Below are positions 52,241-64,000 of a stretch of DNA of 64,000 nucleotides, piece after piece; within the stretch, counting starts at the first letter, position 1, and every line of letters starts with the position of its first letter. Below the pieces are notes generated by a model. The model was not told the origin of the DNA. It did no database searches and worked only from the letters and a program-made list of their open reading frames with translations. This stretch comes from Serratia proteamaculans (lineage in GTDB: Bacteria; Pseudomonadota; Gammaproteobacteria; Enterobacterales; Enterobacteriaceae), in contig NZ_SWDE01000004.1 of assembly GCF_013337185.1 (NCBI RefSeq), positions 62,001-126,000 on the forward strand, read 5' to 3'. The translations under genes were made by a program, and so were the position numbers.

Positions 52241-53686
52241 ATGAGCCTGACGTTTGTCAGTGAGCAGTTACTTGCTGCCAATAAGCTGAGCCACCAGGAT
52301 CTGTTTTCCGTCCTGGGGCAACTGGCCGAACGCCGCCTCGATTATGCCGATCTCTATTTCCAGTCGAGCTACCACGAAGCCTGGGTGATTGAAGACGGTA
52401 TCATCAAGGATGGCTCTTACAATATCGATCAAGGGGTCGGGGTTCGCGCCGTGAGCGGCGAGAAAACCGGCTTCGCCTATGCCGATCAAATCACCCTGAA
52501 TGCCTTGCAGCAAAGTGCCCATGCCGCGCGCAGCATAGTCCGTGACAGCGGTAACGGTCAGGTGCATACCCTGGGTGAAATCAGCCATAAGGCGTTGTAT
52601 CCCCTGCTTGATCCGCTGCAAAGCCTGCCGCGTGAAGAGAAAATCGCTCTGTTGCACCGCGTTGACAAGGTGGCCCGCGCGGCCGATAAACGGGTGCAAG
52701 AGGTCAGCGCCAGCATCACCGGCGTGTATGAACAAATCCTGGTAGCCGCCACCGACGGCACCCTGGCGGCGGACGTTCGCCCGTTGGTGCGTTTATCCGT
52801 CAGCGTGTTGGTGGAGCAAGACGGCAAGCGTGAACGCGGCTCCAGCGGCGGCGGTGGCCGTTTCGGCTATGACTATTTCCTGGAAATCGCCGATGGCGAA
52901 GTCCGTGCCGATGCTTACGCCAAAGAAGCGGTGCGCATGGCATTGATTAACCTTTCTGCGGTGGCGGCCCCGGCAGGCAATATGCCGGTGGTGCTGGGAG
53001 CAGGCTGGCCCGGCGTGCTGCTGCATGAGGCAGTGGGCCACGGGCTGGAAGGCGACTTCAACCGTCGTGGCACTTCGGTCTTTAGCGGTCAGATGGGCCA
53101 GTTGGTGGCTTCCGAGCTGTGCACCGTGGTGGACGACGGCACTTTGCAGGGGTTACGCGGTTCGTTGGCGATCGATGACGAAGGCGTACCCGGCCAGTAC
53201 AACATGTTGATTGAGAACGGTATCCTGAAAGGTTATATGCAGGACAAACTCAATGCGCGTCTGATGGGCGTTGCGCCAACCGGTAACGGCCGCCGCGAGT
53301 CCTACGCGCACCTGCCGATGCCGCGCATGACCAACACTTACATGCTAGCGGGCAAGTCAACGCCGGAAGAGATCATCTCCAGCGTCGAATACGGCCTGTA
53401 TGCGCCGAACTTTGGCGGTGGCCAGGTGGATATCACCTCCGGCAAGTTTGTGTTCTCCACCACCGAAGCCTACCTGATCGAAAAAGGCCGCATCACCAAG
53501 CCGGTGAAAGGCGCAACGCTGATTGGCTCAGGTATTGAGGCAATGCAGCAAATTTCGATGGTGGGCAACGATCTGGCGCTGGATAAAGGCGTCGGTGTCT
53601 GCGGTAAAGAGGGGCAAAGCCTGCCGGTGGGGGTTGGTCAACCGACCCTGAAGCTGGACACCCTGACCGTCGGCGGTACCGCGTAA
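52241..53686 (+). CDS. tldD: Metalloprotease subunit TldD
   Basis: Zinc metalloprotease that works as a heterodimer with TldE (PmbA) to mature peptides such as microcin B17 and to remove unfolded short peptides, 481 residues, the same length as in E. coli. The zinc motif is HEAVGH at 262-267 in [58 protein letters not shown] and [19 protein letters not shown] are also diagnostic. The ATG at 52241 has the right family N-terminus ([10 protein letters not shown]); an earlier in-frame ATG lies inside the previous gene. Last gene of the conserved block. Confidence 0.97.
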
Positions 53687-53980: not shown

Positions 53981-55654
53981 ATGGATTCAGTCACTCAACG
54001 GCTCTCGGCAGCTTTGCTGTGCATTTTATTTTCCTCCGCCACCGGCGCTAACCTGCTTAGCCCGGCGGATCGCGACACCATTCAACAACAGCAGCGTGAC
54101 TTGCTGGAGCAAAACCAGCAGCAGCGGCAGGAACTGCAACGCAGCCTGACGCCGACCCTGCCCGCAACCCCGGCACCCAGCGCCAACACGGGTGGCCCTT
54201 GCTTCACCATCAACCGTATTCAACTGGAAGGCGCCGAGCATCTGCCTGCCAGTGCGCAGCGTAAACTCACCCAGAGTTACCTGCAGCAATGCCTGAATCT
54301 GGGGCAAATCCAAACGCTGGTGCAGCAGGTTTCCGACTGGTACATCGGCCGTGGTTATATCACCAGTCGTGCATTCCTGACCGAGCAGGATCTGTCGCGC
54401 GGCGAACTGCGGTTACTGGTGCTGGAAGGGCGGCTTGAGAAAATCCTGCTGGAGCAGCACGACGACCGCATGCTGAAAATGGCTTTCCCAGGTCTGCAAG
54501 GCAAAATCCTCAACCTGCGCGATATCGAGCAGGGCATGGAGCAGATTAACCGTCTGCGCCAGCAACCGGTGCAGATAGAAATCCTGCCCGGCAGCCAACC
54601 GGGTTACTCGGTGGTCAATTTAAGCGCCAAACCCGAGTTTCCGCTGATGCTGGGGCTGGGGTTCGACAACAGCGGGCAAAAAAGTACCGGAACCGGGCAG
54701 CTCAACGGATCGCTGACCGGTAATAACCTGCTGGGGTTGGCGGATCAATGGTTTGTCGCCGGTGCCCGAAGCAGTGATTTCGCCAACGATCACAACGCGC
54801 GCAGTGTGCAGACCGGCGTCAGCCTGCCTTACGGTTACTGGACGCTGGATTACAACTATTCCTACAGCGACTACCTGACCACCATTAACAATCAGGGATT
54901 CGACTGGCGCTCCAGCGGTGACAGTCAGACCCATCGCCTGGGCGTTTCGCGGGTGCTGCTGCGTGACGGCGAAATGAAAACCGGCCTGTCGCTGGGGCTG
55001 ACGCACCGCATCAACCGCAATTATCTTAACGATACCCGGCTGGAAAGCAGCAGCCGCAAGCTGACCAGTGTGACGCTGGGAGTCAGCCATAGCCAGAAAC
55101 TGCTGGGCGGTTTCGCCACCCTGAACCCGGCCTACAGCCGTGGTGTCCCCTGGTTGGGCGCAGAAAATGACAGCGGAAAAATCAAGGAAGCACCCCGGGC
55201 CGAGTTTCACAAGCTTTCGCTTTCCGGCAGCTACTACCTGCCGCTGGCGCAAGATTGGACCTATCTCACCAGTCTTTACAGCCAGTGGAGTAACCACCGT
55301 TTGTACGGCAGCGAACGCCTGACGATAGGGGGGGAAAGCTCTGTACGTGGTTTCAAGGAGCAATACCTTTCCGGGGACAAGGGCGGTTACTGGCGTAACG
55401 AGGTCAACCGCACGCTGGTGACATTGCCGTACCTCGGCAGTATCAACGCCCTGGCGGCGCTCGACGGTGGCTATTTGCAGCGCGACAAGCTGGATGCCAA
55501 CGCCTCCGGCACGCTGTGGGGCGGCGCTGTGGGGCTGGGTAGCCGAGGCCGCTATTTCAGCAGCCAACTGACCGTCGGCTGGCCGCTGGCTTATCCCGAC
55601 TGGCTCAAACCGGATCGGGTCTCGGTTTATTACCGGGTGAATATCGTACTTTAA
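53981..55654 (+). CDS. TpsB outer-membrane transporter of a two-partner secretion system (ShlB/FhaC/CdiB family)
   Basis: 557 residues. A signal peptide ([16 protein letters not shown]) is followed by a glutamine-rich N-terminal helix/linker ([23 protein letters not shown]). Then come two POTRA domains (about 70-215, starting [17 protein letters not shown], with [31 protein letters not shown]) and a 16-strand beta-barrel. The VRGF motif of loop L6 is at 455-458 ([15 protein letters not shown]), and the last strand ends in RVNIVL. Length and pattern match ShlB, HecB and CdiB. It translocates the TpsA protein encoded 26 bases downstream. The ribosome site is weak (GGA, 11 bases from the ATG). 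E. coli has other genes at this position after tldD, so the locus is an insertion. Confidence 0.95.
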
Positions 55655-55680
55655 CGCTAATGCACAGGAAGGTTTCAAGG

Positions 55681-58600
55681 ATGAAGCGCACTAAAAATCA
55701 ACCGCTTAATACATCTCAGCGTCTGTTGAGCTACACCCTGTGCATCTTGTTGGCCGGGCAGCCGCTGCTGCCTGCACTGGCCCAAGGCGTTAACGTGGCC
55801 GAGGGCAATACCCGTGTCGATCAGGCCGCCAACGGCGTGCCGGTGGTCAACATTGCCACACCGAATCAGGCTGGCATTTCTCATAATCAATACAACGATT
55901 TCAACGTTGGCAAAGAGGGGATGATCCTCAATAACGCCACCGGCCAACTCAACCAGACCCAGCTCGGCGGCCTGATCCAGAACAACCCCAATCTGCAGGC
56001 CGGCAAGGAAGCGCAAGGCATCATCAACGAAGTGGTGGCCCCGAACCCTTCACAGCTGCAGGGCTACCTGGAGGTGGCGGGCAAGCAGGCCAGCGTCATG
56101 GTTGCCAACCCCTATGGCATCACCTGCGACGGTTGCGGCTTTATCAACACCCCTAACGCGACGCTGACCACCGGCAAGCCGGTGCTGGGTGCCGACGGCA
56201 AGCTGCAGGCGCTGGAAGTGACCCAGGGGACCATCACTATTCAGGGCAAGGGGCTCAATGCCGACAGCAGCGACAAATTCGCCCTGATTGCCCGCGCGAC
56301 CGAGATCAACGCGCAACTACACGCCAAAGACCTCAACATCACTGTTGGTGCCAACCGGGTGGACGCCACCGGCAAGGCCACGGCGATCACCGGTCAGGGC
56401 GAAGTTCCCAAAGTCGCCATCGATACCGGTGCGCTGGGCGGCATGTACGCCAACCTTATTCATTTGGTGTCCAGTGACAAAGGGGTGGGCGTCAACCTCG
56501 GTAACCTCACCGCGCGTGAAGGCGATATTCAACTGGAGGCCAATGGCCAACTGCGGCTGAACAAAACCCTGGCACAGGGCAACCTGAATGCCACGGCGGC
56601 GGGCATCACGCTGAGCGGCAAGCATAAGGCGGAACAGGCGCTTACCCTGAACAGCCGTGGCGACATTGTGATGGAACAGGCCACGCTGAGCGCCAAAGGG
56701 GATATGCAGCTGACCGCCGCAGGCAAACTGCAGGCGGGTAAAGCCGATACGGACGGTCGCCTGCAAGTGGATGCCGCCAGCCTGAGCAGCGATAAAAACA
56801 GCAGCCTGACGGCCGAAGGGGATATCAACCTGACGCTCAGCGGCGACGGCAACTGGCAGGGCACCCTGACCGCCGGACGCGATCTGCAGTTGCAGGCCAA
56901 TCATCTGACCAACGCCGGCCAGTTGGCTGCCAATCGCGACAGCCGTGTTAACACACAAAACCTGACCAACAGCGGCCTGATCCAGGCTCAGGGCACGCAG
57001 AAACTGACCAGTACCCAACTCGACAATTCGGGGCAGTTGAAAGCGGGCACTGCGCACACCATTACCGCCAACGGTGTCGACAATCAGGGGACAATCACCT
57101 CCCTGCAACAACTCGATCTGCGTATTCGCGACCGTCTTAAGGTCGGTGGCTCACTGTCTGCCGATGGCCTGTTAACGGTACAGGCAGGCGAGTTTTTGCT
57201 GGCCGGAAGCGCCAGCGGCAAGCAGGGTGTCACCCTTGATCACACCGGCCGGATGAAAACCGAGCTGGGCTCATCGCTGCTGAGCGACGGCAACATCAGC
57301 CTCAACGCCGATGATATGCAGCTCGGCGGGCTGCTTTCCAGTGAGCAAGGCCTGACGCTGGAAACGCCAAACCTGCTGTCTACCGCCGGCGCCCGCATCC
57401 AGTCCAAACAGGACATGACGATCAAGGTTGCGCAAGACGCGCAGCTGGCCGGCGTATTCAACACGCTGGGGGATTTGAATTTCTCTGCCGCCACGGCGGA
57501 TAACCGCGGTGACATTGGCGCCCGCTCGCTGGATCTGACGTTCACCAAAACCTTCAATAACGCCGGTAAGTTTGAGGCGGAAAATACAATAACCCTCACC
57601 ACGCCATCGTTGATCAATTCGGGGGTTATGGTCGCCAAAGGCATCGAGCTTAATGCCGACAGCCTGGACAACAGCGGACGACTGCAGGCGTGGGAAAACG
57701 CGAATATCACCAGTAAAGATCTGCAAAACCGCCTGGTGGGCCAGTTGCTGGCCGGTGGCACACTGACGCTGCAGGGCACCGGGCTGAATAATGCCGGCAA
57801 GCTGCAGGGCAAGACTGTGGATATTGACGTGCAGCGTTGGGACAACAGCGGCAGTGCGCTGGGCGATGACGGCTTAACCGCCGTGGTTGAGCAGGCGCTG
57901 GAAAACAGCGGGCAACTGCTGAGCGAAGGGCCGATGAAACTGACGGCCGCCACGCTGAACAACCCTGGCAAAATACTGAGTGAGGGCGCGTTACAGCTTA
58001 CTGCCGACAGCGTCAGCAATCAGGGGGAGGCGCAAGGTGCAACCACCACTGTCACCGCCAATTCGCTGAACAACAGCGGCAACCTGATAGGCATACAAAA
58101 GCTGGTGTTGCAGCTGGAAAAGGATCTGATCAACGCCACTGGCGGCAAGCTGCTGAGTGACGGTGAACTCACGGCCAGCGCAGCGACGGTTAATAACAGC
58201 GGATTATGGCAGGGCGATCTTATTACGCTGACGGCCCAGCAACTGGATCATAAGGGTACGCTAGAGGCGGGGAAAGGGATCTCGCTGGGTCTGAGCGGCG
58301 ATCTTAATGCTGATGCAGGTAGCAAGATCCTCTCCAATGGTGAAGCGGCAATCAAGGCACTGGCACTGAATAACCAGGGAAGTTGGCAGGCGGGGGCGTT
58401 ACGTCTGACAGGTGACAGTCTGAGTAATAGTGGAACACTGATTGGTGTTAACTGGCTGGATGCCGAAATAGCAAAAACGACTACGCAGCAAGCTACAGGA
58501 CAGATGCTAAGTAACGGTGTGCTGAAGCTGAATGCTAATAACATCAGTAATCAGGGGCTGATGCAGGCGGGTGAATTGTTGTTGAAAGCCACCGACCTGA

Positions 58601-61600
58601 CCAACAGCGGGAGGCTACAGGGGCAAACCCACTTCGAGGCCAAGCTGAGCGGCGTATTCAACAACCTGGCAGGCGGCAATGTGCGCAGTTTGGCCGGGCT
58701 GCGGATAGAGGCGGACGAACTGAATAACGCCGGAGAACTGCAGGGAGATGGCGGCAGCGTGCTGCAGTTGGATCGTCAGTTGATCAACTCAGGCAACCTG
58801 AAGGTTGGCGGTGCCTTGAGTCTGCAAGCGCCAACGCTGAACAACAGCGGTTGGCTACAGGCTAATAGCCTGACGTTTAACGGCACCGAATTGGATAACA
58901 GCGGCACATTAAGCACCACCGGTGATAACCAGCTCACGCTCGATAGTCTGAAGAATACGGGGACGTTGCAGGGCGGTAATTTAATCCTGAAGGCGGACAG
59001 CCTGGATAACGCCGGCACGCTGCTGGCCACCAGCCAGATGAACCTCAAAGCGCGGCAGATTGATAACCAGAACAGCGGCAAACTGCTCAGCGGTGGCGAT
59101 ACCACACTGGGGGCCAGCCTGCTGAATCAATACGGCCAACTGGTAACGCTGGGCAATATGACTTTGAGTCTGAAAGACGCCTTTACCCAGAGCGGCACCC
59201 TGGCGGTGGGCAAAGCGCTGGTCCTGACCAGTGACGGCGATATTCTGCTAAAGGGAACCACTCAAGGCCAGAGTCTGGATCTGCGCAGCGGTGGCCAGTT
59301 GACCAACGCAGGCACCTTGCGCGGCGGCAGCGGTGACATGCGCCTGGAAGCGGCCGGGATCACACAAAACGCTACCGCCAGCCTGCAATCGGGCGGGTTG
59401 GTGCAATTGCTGAGCCGGGGCGACATCAGCAATGACGGCTTTATCGGTACCGCGGGCGATCTGCTGCTGAGTGCCGCCAACCAGTTGATCAACAGCGGTA
59501 TGCTGTACGCCGGTGGTGATATGAGGTTGCTGGCGGACCGTATCACCAACCAGCGTGGTGATATTCTAGCGGGCAAAAACCTGTGGATGCAGAAAGACGC
59601 CGACGGCAAGGCCAACAGCCAGATCGTCAATACCTCCGGCACTATCGAAACCGAAACCGGCGATATTCATATCAACACCGCGCATCTGCTTAATCAGCGC
59701 GATGGGCTGAAAACCTCGGTTACGCAGGAAGATCTGACCAAAAAATACGATTGGCTGAACGGGGCCACGGCCAGTATTCCGCTGAGCTTCTTTAACGATG
59801 ATGAGTACGGCTACTACACCGTAGATACCATGCGTCAAATGGCGGGGGATGCTGCGCGTGAGGTATACAAGCGGTATACCTACGCCTCACCGTATGCCAC
59901 CACCAAAGAGTTGGCGTTATCGACCAGCAAGGTGACGGTCAGCAGCACGGGCGGTGCGGCGCGTATTGCCGCCGGTCGTAACATGACGCTGAATGCCACA
60001 ACGCTGGATAATCTGGCCAGCGATATTCTGGCTGAGGGGGATATTGCGCTCACCGGCAGCACGCTGAACAACCAGTCATGGGCTGCGGGTACAGAAACGC
60101 GTTATCAAACCTATACCTATCAAAAACCGCCGTTGCCGGGATCGGATAATAAGCCGAAGGTATCTGCCGTTTCGGCAATCAATGACTACGCCAAAAGCAA
60201 AATTGAAGATAAGAATATCCACTATAAAGCCAGCGGAGACGTGCGCACTGAACGCACCGACGACGGTGTCTATCGTTCGGTGATCCAGGCTGGTGGCGCG
60301 GTGAACGCCAACTTTAGCGACGATATCGGCAACACCACGCTGACCCCGAACGCCGGCAGCCTCAGCCACACTCTGGCGCGGCCAACGCTGGACAGCCTGC
60401 AGCAGCCGGAAGACGTCAAGGGTGTGGAACAACAAGCCCTGGCGAAGGAGCAAAGCGTCGTTTTCGGTACTCCGGAGTGGAAAGACAACCTGCAGGAGGC
60501 ACTCGGCACGCTCGGCAATAACGCCGTAGACTTGTCAGATTACCCACTGCCAAGCGGTGGCAATGGCCGCTTTGTCGTCACTGAAGATCCGGGCAGCCCC
60601 TATCTGATCACCACCAACCCCAAGCTGGACGGTCTGGGGCAGTTGGACGGCAGCCTGTTCAACGATCTCTACGCCATGTTGGGCCAGCAGCCGGGCACTG
60701 CCCCGCGTGAAAGCGACAGCCGTTTCACCGATGAAAAGCAGTTTATCGGTTCGGCCTATTTCCTCGACCGCCTGAAATTAAACCCGGATTACGACTACCG
60801 CTTCCTCGGGGACGCGGCGTTCGATACCCGTTACATCAGCAACGCGATGCTCAATCAAACCGGCCAGCGCTATCTTAATGGCGTCGGATCCGATCTGGCG
60901 CAGATGCAGCAGTTGATCGACAACGCGGCGCGGGCGCAGAGCGGCCTGAACCTGCAGTTCGGCATCAGCCTGACACCGGCACAGGTTTCACAGCTGGAGC
61001 ACAGCATCGTTTGGTGGGAGAAGGTAACGGTCAATGGTCAGACGGTGCTGGCACCCAAACTCTATTTGGCCAAAGGTGACGTCGCCCCACTGAGCGGCAG
61101 CGTGATTGCCGGCAACAAGGTTAACCTGAACGGTGGCAGCATCCGCAACGACGCCAGCACGCTGCAGGGCGGTGAGCGGCTGAACGTCAACAGCCAGGCA
61201 GGCATCAGCAATCTTAATCAGGGGATGATCAACGCTAACGATGGGCTGAGTTTGAGCGCTATTGGTGATATCAGCAATATCGGCTCGACCATCAGTGGGC
61301 AGCGGGTGCAGCTTGAAAGCCAGGACGGCAGTATTATCAATAAAACTCAGGCCCGCCAGTGGGATGCCACCGGAACCCAGGGGGGCCAGACGTTGACGCG
61401 TTCGCGCACGGAAGTCGGTGATACCGCCGTGATCCGCGCCGGGGATACATTGAATATGCAGGCCGGTAACAATATTGATGTTACCGGGGCGCAGGTTACC
61501 TCTGGCGGTGCAATGGATCTGCGGGCGGGCGGTGACGTCAACCTGCTTGCCAATAATACGTCTCGCGTCGACAAGTCTGACGGCGGCCGTTGGGGCGGTG

Positions 61601-64000
61601 GGCTAAAAGAAAGTGAAACCCATGGCAGCCTGGCCACTGAAATCAGCGCTGGTGGGCCACTAAACGTCAGTGCCGGGCAGGATCTGAACCTGACCGCCAG
61701 TCAAATCGGCAGCAAGGGCGATGCGGCATTAACAGCCGGACGTGACATCAATCTGCAAACCGCCGAACAGGGGAGTCGTCAGAAAACCAACAATAGCGAG
61801 CACATCAGCAGTGGCGCGACGCGTAGCACCCTCACCAGCGGCGGTGATCTGCAGTTGCAGGCCGGACGTGACCTGAATTCACAGGCCGCGGCGCTGGTGG
61901 CAGACAACGATGTCGGCCTGCGGGCCGGGCGTGACGTTAACCTCAATACCCAACAAAGCCGGGAATATCAGGAAAGCCACGGCGGTCGCCAACAGCGAGT
62001 GAACGAGTCCATACGCCAGCAGGGCACTGAGATTGCCAGCGGCGGCGACACGCGCATTCAGGCCGGACGGGACGCGACCCTCAACGCCACCCAGGCCCAG
62101 GCCAGCGGTGACGTGGCGGTGAGCGCCGGGCGTGATATCGCGCTCAATAGCGCCACCGAAAGCGACTACAGCTTCTTCGAAGAGACCAAGGTCAAAAAAG
62201 GCCTGATGTCCAAAACCACCACCCATACGGTGGAAGAGGACTACGCCACCCACGAGAAAGGCGGCTTGCTGAGCGGGAACAACGTCTCGCTCAATGCCGG
62301 TAACGATCTCAAGGTGCAAGGCTCGACGGTGGTCGGCGACGGCAAGGTAAACCTGCAGGCGGGCAATAACGTCGATATTGTCGCCGCCACCGAGGAGCAA
62401 TCACGCTACCGGCTGAACGAGAAAAAAACCAGTGGCGTTTTCAGCGGCGGCGGCATCGGCGTGACCTTCGGCAGCAAATCTTCCCGCCATCAGTTGAACG
62501 AAGACGGCACCACTCAAAGCCAGAGCGTCAGCACCATCGGCTCTACCGGCGGCGACGTGAATATCGTGGCCGGCGGCAAGGCGCATATCGGCGGCGCGGA
62601 TGTTATTGCGGATAAGAACCTTAACGTGGTGGCGGGTGAGATCAGTGTCGATCCGGGCAATGATCTGCTGCGGCGTAAAGAGCGTTACGAGCAGAAGCAA
62701 AGCGGATTGACGCTGTCGGTCTCCAGTCCTATCACCGATACGTTGCTGGCGATTAATGATTCGCTCAAGCGTGCGGACGATACCGGCGATGGCAGATTGA
62801 AAGCGTTGTATGCGGTGCAGGCTGCCCGTGCAGGATGGGTTAACTCGGAAGCCAGTGCCGATCAGGCGCAGGGGCTGGCGAAAGGTGAGCTTTCCAACAG
62901 TGTGAAGGTGCAACTGAGTGTTGGAGCAAGCAAGAGCACCTCCGAGTCTGAGCAGGCACAAAATCAGGTACGTGGCAGCAACCTGACGGCAGGCGGCGAC
63001 GCAACTCTGGTCGCGACTGGGTCGAAAGGCACCAGCGGCGACCTGCATGTCAGCGGTAGCGGTATCACTGGTAACAAGGTGACGCTGGCGGCGAAAAACG
63101 ATCTGTTGCTGGAGGCGGCTGGCAACAACCGAGAACAGACCAGCAAAAACAACAGCAGCGGCTGGAATGCCGGGGTGCATATTTCACTGGGGCAGGAAAC
63201 AGGGATTGGCGCCTCGGCCAGTGGTTATCAATCGAAAGGTGCGACAGACGGCAAAAGTACCGATTATGTTAACTCTCGGGTGAATGCAAGGGACGAACTG
63301 AGCCTGAGCAGTGGACGTGATACGACGCTTTCCGGTGCGCAGGCGTTGGGTGACAAGATCAAGGTGGATGCCGGACGCGATCTGTCTATCAGCAGCCTGC
63401 AGGATACCGATGATTACCACAGTTGGCAGAAGGACGTGAGCGGTGGCGCGAGCTTTACCTTCGGATCGATGAGCGGCTCTGCTTCGGTAAGCATGAACCA
63501 GACTAAAATCGACAGTGAATACGCCAGCGTGGGTGACCAAAGCGGTTTATTTGCCGGGGATAAAGGCTTTGATATCAACGTCGGCAACCATACGCAACTG
63601 AATGGTGGGGTGATTGCTTCGACGGCGGACAGCATCAAAAACCAGCTCTCTACCGGTACCTTGGGTTGGGATGCCATTGATAACAAAGCGGAGTATAACG
63701 CCAGCAGCAGTGGATTCGGTATTTCGACCAGTGGACCAACTGGCGGCGGGCTTGCCAAAGAGAAAGGCAAGGCTTCCGGCACCACGCAGTCGGCCGTCGC
63801 CGAAGGCAATATTGATATTCGCAATACGGCGGATCAAACTCAGGATATCGCCGGGTTAAGCCGCGATACGGACAATGCCAATGGCCGCATCGATAAAATC
63901 TTCGATGAGGCGAAGGTGAAAGACAATCTGGCGTTTGCGCAGGGTGTGGCTCAGCTCAGTACCCAGTTGGTCAGCGACTACGGTAATCAGCAAATGCTGC
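55681..64000 (+). CDS. TpsA filamentous haemagglutinin/CdiA-like exoprotein, 5' part
   Basis: Open for 2773 codons and cut by the window end. An export signal (residues about 1-35, ending LPALAQG) precedes the TPS secretion domain (about 36-290), with NPNL at 102-105, NPYGI at 143-147 and the cysteine pair CDGC at 149-152. A first haemagglutinin repeat region follows (about 290-1300; ~20-residue L(D/N)N(S/A)G units). Then comes a non-repetitive region (about 1300-1790) with [39 protein letters not shown] and VWWEKV, resembling the receptor-binding part of CdiA. A second repeat region (about 1800-2680) has many AGRD-L/I units. The part just before 64000 is where a pretoxin and variable toxin usually follow. 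The ATG has AGGAAGG eight bases upstream. Haemagglutinin/adhesin is the alternative role. Confidence 0.93.

Follow-up and report, generated by a model that had tools for sequence, protein, structure and literature searches.

A contact-dependent inhibition locus of Serratia proteamaculans with a predicted Deam_C deaminase toxin and a putative DUF6911 immunity gene

Organization of the cdiBAI locus

We analyzed a stretch of 64,000 nucleotides from Serratia proteamaculans (contig NZ_SWDE01000004.1; positions 62001-126000 of C14, a contig of 487,719 bases; hereafter the window), which ends within a contact-dependent inhibition (CDI) locus. By sequence, this is a complete cdiBAI locus of the E. coli type, comprising CdiB, a full-length open CdiA, a pretoxin region with a VENN motif, a two-domain C-terminal region (CdiA-CT) and, behind it, a small gene whose start overlaps the stop codon of cdiA. 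An earlier note on this DNA had described a two-partner secretion (TPS) pair in the E. coli-type order, TpsB followed by TpsA, inserted after tldD. Both the order and the site are confirmed: tldD forms the left flank, cdiB follows from 53981 and cdiA from 55660. The pretoxin, the entry and toxin domains, cdiI, a cdiA remnant, a HEAT-repeat gene and the right flank all lie outside the window. Coordinates beyond 64000 continue the window numbering, with a position in L002 (C14:115661-135660) plus 53660 giving the window coordinate. The features are:

52241..53686, + strand: tldD, left chromosomal flank (open reading frame, ORF; start deduced from its translation; named after the earlier note)
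53981..55654, + strand: cdiB (TpsB, 557 aa), outer-membrane transporter of CdiA (ShlB, PF03865, E 6.9e-97; POTRA_2; POTRA_3)
55660..64000, + strand: cdiA, part within the window (whole residues 1-2780 of 3269; ORF, Pfam)
55804..56556, + strand: TPS secretion domain of CdiA, residues 49-299 (PF05860, E 1.9e-49; CDGC from residue 156)
60460..60879, + strand: CdiA stretch richest in Tyr/Pro, residues 1601-1740, candidate receptor-binding region (composition only)
62920..63432, + strand: FHA-2 type haemagglutinin repeats, CdiA residues 2421-2591, the best Fil_haemagg_2 stretch (PF13332, E 7.4e-58, 6 stretches)
64001-65469, + strand: cdiA, part outside the window (unbroken frame)
64411-64563, + strand: PT-VENN domain, CdiA residues 2918-2968 (E 5.6e-17), with VENN from 64543 (residue 2962)
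64555-65049, + strand: entry domain, CT residues 5-169 (match to PDB 6vek)
65056-65454, + strand: Deam_C toxin domain, CdiA residues 3133-3265 (PF24241, E 1.5e-47), with HAE at 65236-65244 and CNYC at 65326-65337
65466-65861, + strand: cdiI (DUF6911, 131 aa; PF21852, E 9.2e-43)
65951-66178, + strand: cdiA remnant, best-conserved part 65975-66047 (similarity to the FHA-2 of G019)
66189-67532, + strand: HEAT-repeat gene, 447 aa (ORF at 12529-13872 of L002)
67669-68613, - strand: nucleoside hydrolase gene, right flank (read from L002)

CdiB is of the ShlB/FhaC type, with POTRA_2, POTRA_3 and ShlB domains recognized by Pfam. It lies directly upstream of cdiA on the same (+) strand, with a gap of 5 nt. 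The cdiA frame extends 1469 bases past the window and codes for 3269 aa in total. As the earlier note had held, the protein combines a TPS domain bearing the CDGC motif with repeats: profile searches place Fil_haemagg_2 in 6 stretches and TIGR01731 in 11. The 100-residue windows highest in Tyr/Pro begin at residues 1601-1641, and it is plausible on sequence grounds that this middle part of CdiA houses a receptor-binding domain.

The earlier note had set the start of the pretoxin at about CdiA residues 2721-2773, which proved too early: VENN stands at residue 2962, some 180 residues past the last whole residue within the window. It had also foreseen a pretoxin motif, then a short C-terminal domain of variable sequence and, directly behind the stop, a small gene for immunity; these expectations were borne out by the PT-VENN domain, the Deam_C domain and the DUF6911 gene, all of which are present. 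A plain haemagglutinin end of CdiA is thereby ruled out. The GC content, which is 0.53-0.63 along cdiA, drops to 0.38-0.43 over its CT end and in cdiI.

The entry domain of CdiA-CT

Counted from the first residue of VENN, CdiA-CT has 308 residues, with the variable toxin region starting after VENN and four cysteines at positions 55, 65, 262 and 265. Residues 2-169 match the crystallized CdiA-CT of E. coli 3006 (PDB 6vek) with an E value of 3.1e-64. Excerpts of PMC9424206 (papers given by PMC number are cited here from parts of their text) report that the entry domain of E. coli 3006 requires PtsG and carries a Cys55-Cys65 disulfide, and that replacing Tyr5, the residue next after VENN, with Ala abolishes both its switch and its import. 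Cys55, Cys65 and Tyr5 are all conserved in the Serratia protein, and PtsG-dependent import is therefore a natural prediction from its sequence. The likeness is confined to the entry domain and these Cys and Tyr5 positions: the toxin domain of the E. coli 3006 CdiA-CT is a tRNase (PMC9424206, in the same excerpts), whereas that of Serratia is a predicted deaminase.

The Deam_C toxin domain

The toxin domain matches Deam_C with 161.4 bits against a cut-off of 27 (E 1.5e-47). It bears the zinc-deaminase signature HAE...CxxC, the residues of which (H64-A65-E66, C94 and C97) are invariant in all 16 toxin domains aligned. These were taken from 16 of the 20 loci fetched, leaving aside L003, L010 and L017, which are broken or partial, and L055. 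All 16 match Deam_C and, at E ≤ 1, also MafB19-deam (PF14437) and dCMP_cyt_deam_1. For MafB19-deam the best E value among the 16 is 3.4e-7, as against 5.6e-4 for the Serratia toxin; the corresponding values for dCMP_cyt_deam_1 are 7.5e-5 and 0.037. We file the Serratia toxin under Deam_C because its MafB19-deam score of 20.3 bits falls short of the cut-off of 27. DddA-like (PF14428) and DYW (PF14432) are absent from the 11 families that the 16 members match at E ≤ 1.

A model of the toxin (pLDDT 71.5, built on 6 sequences) returned no deaminase among the best 50 matches listed per structure comparison, and a profile search of PDB with the toxin gave nothing below E 0.3. Since the structural route gave no help, membership in the deaminases rests on the sequence profiles and the invariant zinc site, and we consider zinc-dependent deaminase chemistry of the domain very likely. 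By analogy, cytosine in DNA appears the likeliest single substrate, a call that we regard as evenly balanced; it is put first because three other families of deaminase toxins mutate DNA (PMC7901873, excerpt).

The distribution of Deam_C is patchy, with representatives in seven of the 30 genomes of the genus and in two of 369 genomes drawn from the class (own genome included in the latter). The branch was found in Serratia, E. coli, Photorhabdus, Rahnella, Pseudomonas, Acinetobacter and Neisseria. Among the best 30 of 269 plasmid records matched, at least five match the toxin part, of which four were fetched (H11, a second N. gonorrhoeae record, was left out); the other plasmid records among the matches listed match the pretoxin or entry part only.

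Several known systems resemble this one. In E. coli M8 (L054) the same CT combination is found in one frame, with an entry domain 73% and a toxin 93.5% identical to those of Serratia, followed by a DUF6911 gene. The M8 cdiI is 81% identical to that of Serratia in DNA, and cdiI is found at full length in 10 of 5426 E. coli genomes. Excerpts of PMC11630599, among them its table 2, list the E. coli type 17 CDI toxins as uncharacterised MafB19 deaminases, the entry domain being of the PtsG or the SecY kind. We infer that the M8 locus belongs to this type, from which the Serratia locus differs in its host and in lying between tldD and a LysR-type gene that we take to be aaeR.

DddA and SsdA share with the Serratia toxin the zinc-deaminase signature and, by inference, an interbacterial role (PMC7901873, excerpt). 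They belong to other deaminase families, PF14428 and PF14432 being unmatched at E ≤ 1 by the Deam_C members, and the same excerpt reports that DddA reaches its targets through type VI secretion. In the Maf module of N. gonorrhoeae (L018), a MafB end is fused to Deam_C and followed by the protein of PDB 6anz; here the delivery is by Maf and the toxin is 43% identical to that of Serratia. A gonococcal MafB with a deaminase-superfamily domain, which may be that of L018, is mentioned in an excerpt of PMC4287609. Parts of PMC4725963 and PMC6336857 list deaminases also for the CDI of Pseudomonas and Acinetobacter, and PMC9424206, in the part cited, studied the entry domain, though not the toxin, of a CdiA-CT from Yersinia whose predicted deaminase belongs to a different family (PF14424).

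The earlier note had called the toxin end the likeliest place for a new activity. This stands in part: the deaminase family already figures among the CDI toxins of E. coli, as type 17 in the excerpts of PMC11630599, and among the matches listed in our search of the open-licence literature no activity test of a Deam_C or CDI deaminase toxin was found, which is no proof of absence.

The putative DUF6911 immunity gene

The 131-aa ORF behind cdiA starts within the cdiA stop (ATGA overlap) and matches DUF6911 (PF21852, E 9.2e-43); for its linkage to the toxin, described below, we assign it as CdiI. DUF6911 is present in the same seven of 30 Serratia genomes as Deam_C, each time directly downstream by coordinates, a co-occurrence with a chance of 4.9e-7 if the genomes are independent. 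Neither family was found in the 14 control genomes of this search. All 17 distinct loci to which the toxin led have a DUF6911-like ORF adjoining it; the one from A. baumannii (L021) is weak, its 17.5 bits lying below the cut-off of 24, and escaped the single-sequence search. L054-L056 were reached through the immunity gene and stand outside these 17, while L001, L011, L014-L016 and L022-L028 repeat loci already counted.

The identity matrices of toxin and immunity protein are correlated (r = 0.90 over 18 loci, a value reached in none of 5000 permutations and inflated by shared ancestry). This comparison omits L055, which has the same pair as L054, and L010, whose toxin is split in two. The N. 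gonorrhoeae member aligns over 133 residues and with zero mismatches to PDB 6anz, deposited as 'Uncharacterized protein', and its gene lies directly behind the MafB end fused to Deam_C in L018. Because of this co-occurrence, adjacency and co-divergence with Deam_C, together with the MafB-Deam_C neighbor, DUF6911 is best read as an immunity family for Deam_C toxins, of which a structure would already be available in PDB. Our own model of the immunity protein, built on 7 sequences, has a pLDDT of 58.9. The open-licence literature searched contains no mention of DUF6911, which is no proof of absence.

Two further loci of this family deserve description. In Photorhabdus sp. CRCIA-P01 (L010), Deam_C is split across two overlapping frames and the DUF6911 gene is open, so that the immunity gene is kept and the toxin is apparently broken. 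On a P. aeruginosa plasmid record (NZ_CP116719.1; L019), a DUF637 protein, the deaminase with its DUF6911 gene and an EndoU-domain protein lie within ~6 kb, with small genes between them; this stretch is probably an array of orphan toxin-immunity pairs.

The chromosomal site and the exchange of modules

The cdi locus lies here between tldD and aaeR, with the nucleoside hydrolase gene, presumably rih-like, as its right flank. tldD was found in 29 of the 30 genus genomes, a close relative of aaeR in 26, and both on one contig in 24. CdiB relatives of at least 86% identity occur in nine of the 30 (own included), the copy in G004 being partial and with stops. Seven of the 24 genomes have such a relative between tldD and aaeR, at a spacing of 8.2-16.1 kb (the G004 copy included). 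The spacing is 1.5-5.1 kb in 14, and 17-21 kb in three that have no such CdiB. The interval in G022 (L061, G022:C2:954500-974000), the only one of these three that was read, reads as a chaperone-usher fimbrial operon, and it is on this account that we take the tldD-aaeR interval to accept different cargo in different Serratia. In G005 and G016 a CdiB relative is present, with the flanks on different contigs. The nucleoside hydrolase gene lies beyond the cdi locus in seven of nine same-site loci (own included), L039 and L040 reaching the contig end first.

Eight same-site loci besides our own were fetched, and the CT is readable in seven of them, L040 breaking off upstream of it. At this site, G006 shares with our genome both the deaminase CT and the DUF6911 gene. 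In the other six readable loci (G019, G008, G018, G007, G005 and G004) the main CdiA CT has no match to ours at E ≤ 1e-5, and by eye these CTs differ from each other. Degradation has affected both cdiB and cdiA in G004 (S. grimesii), where an orphan deaminase module, interrupted by a stop, lies downstream of them. The deaminase module is thus found at the tldD-aaeR site in G004, G006 and our own genome (G000). It lies ~2.4 kb from aaeR in G016, on contigs lacking the flanks in G015 and G020, and in G021 ~1.8 Mb from tldD with another TpsB ~13 kb away; it is not tied to this site.

Comparisons of CdiA in 100-residue windows separate the FHA-2 region from the CT. Up to about residue 2300, our CdiA shares 78-99% identity with its G019 counterpart, apart from the windows that start at 601, 701 and 901 (37-44%); between residue 2300 and the pretoxin the identity is 40-55%, with one window unmatched. 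With G018, it shares 85-95% identity from residue 2201 to the pretoxin, followed by an unrelated CT; with G006, the FHA-2 (from 2501) is 39-54% and the CT 92-97% identical. Because these patterns disagree between FHA-2 and CT, the FHA-2 type and the CT/immunity module travel independently, and their sequences make a clear case for two separate exchange units at one chromosomal site.

The cdiA remnant behind cdiI is 82% (over 73 bp) or 84% (over 25 aa) identical to the FHA-2 of G019 and only 45% identical, over 29 residues, to our own CdiA; judged by these similarities, it resembles a scar left behind when an earlier cdiA end was displaced. From within the entry domain through cdiI, the remnant and the HEAT-repeat gene, our DNA is 97.4% identical to that of S. 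grimesii over 2910 bp. Orphan modules behind cdiBAI are described as well known in excerpts of PMC3150448. No link of the island to phages was seen: the cdiI protein had no match in phage records at E ≤ 1e-5, and a scan of viral contigs with the HEAT protein gave no relative, the toxin having been searched in neither collection.

The same genome carries, ~206 kb downstream (L060, G000:C14:320500-338500), a second CdiB/CdiA pair with an open frame of 3289 aa, a VENN motif and a different CT. Behind it lie two more toxin-like ORFs followed by small ORFs (87 and 89 aa), plus a small ORF of 84 aa. By its sequence, this region resembles an array of CDI modules of the ionophore type.

Proposed mechanism and alternative explanations

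Taken as a whole, the locus is very probably a cdiBAI system that delivers a predicted deaminase, with a DUF6911 protein for immunity. In such a system CdiB would export CdiA to the cell surface, and on contact CdiA-CT would be cleaved after VENN in the periplasm of the target. The entry domain would then cross the target inner membrane via PtsG, and the Deam_C domain would deaminate a base in the nucleic acid of the target. The DUF6911 protein would bind the toxin and thus shield the producer. The CT/immunity pair would be an exchangeable module, and the remnant, perhaps with the HEAT-repeat gene, would represent leftovers of earlier exchanges at the site.

A deaminase with a substrate other than DNA cytosine, such as RNA (e.g., tRNA), adenine or free nucleotides, would halt growth by blocking translation or draining a nucleotide pool. 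We give this somewhat less than an even chance. It accords with the table excerpted from PMC11630599, in which 10 of 21 toxin types of E. coli CDI are listed as RNA-acting, one with a query mark, and with a family profile that has more in common with MafB19-deam and dCMP_cyt_deam_1 than with the DddA/SsdA families, PF14428 and PF14432. A deposited P. aeruginosa homolog also bears a tRNA-editing GO label, but this label is automatic, and deaminase toxins from three other families gave C-to-T changes in DNA when they were tested (PMC7901873, excerpt). We consider it improbable that the locus serves as an adhesin, or is a CDI locus in decay, with a C-terminal module that goes unused. CdiA-type proteins are also able to act in adhesion, cdiA is split between frames in the same-site relatives G006 and G018, and S. 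grimesii has its degraded cdiB and cdiA and the stop in its deaminase module. In our genome, however, the frames of cdiB, cdiA and cdiI are each open over their whole length, and the catalytic residues do not vary in any of the 16 aligned domains.

The HEAT-repeat gene, with ~30% GC, might itself be part of the system as a second, orphan immunity gene that has lost its toxin half, which we consider rather unlikely. Its place behind a cdiA remnant resembles that of orphan cdiI genes, which come after fragments of cdiA (PMC3150448, excerpt), and it stands behind the module in our DNA and in that of S. grimesii alike. Yet the cdiA fragment stops short of the VENN motif, and the gene occurs in only two of the 30 genus genomes and in five of 295 genomes of the order (own included). 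Its relatives in L049 and L050, which come from two further genomes of the same family (43-44% identity), adjoin non-toxin genes, which by their sequences read as an HNH endonuclease in both and in L049 also as the RNA ligase RtcB. As to a possible role in defense, the HEAT protein gave only a PADLOC match with an E value of 0.07.

Implications

This kind of system is already known, and the pairing of entry domain and toxin is already present in E. coli. The points of interest are the Deam_C deaminase branch, the assignment of DUF6911 and 6anz, and the separate exchange of FHA-2 and CT at one site. We tentatively suggest, at somewhat less than even confidence, that the Deam_C toxins form a distinct DNA-editing branch delivered by both CDI and Maf, which leaves survivors with C-to-T mutations and has DUF6911 as its dedicated family of inhibitors. 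Were it true, CDI would be a route of contact-dependent mutagenesis. The assignment made here gives DUF6911 a testable role as an immunity family, and likewise the solved but unexplained structure 6anz, and the probable inner-membrane receptor of the Serratia toxin is named. Members of the Deam_C branch could mutate neighboring bacteria on contact, and might serve as base-editing enzymes.

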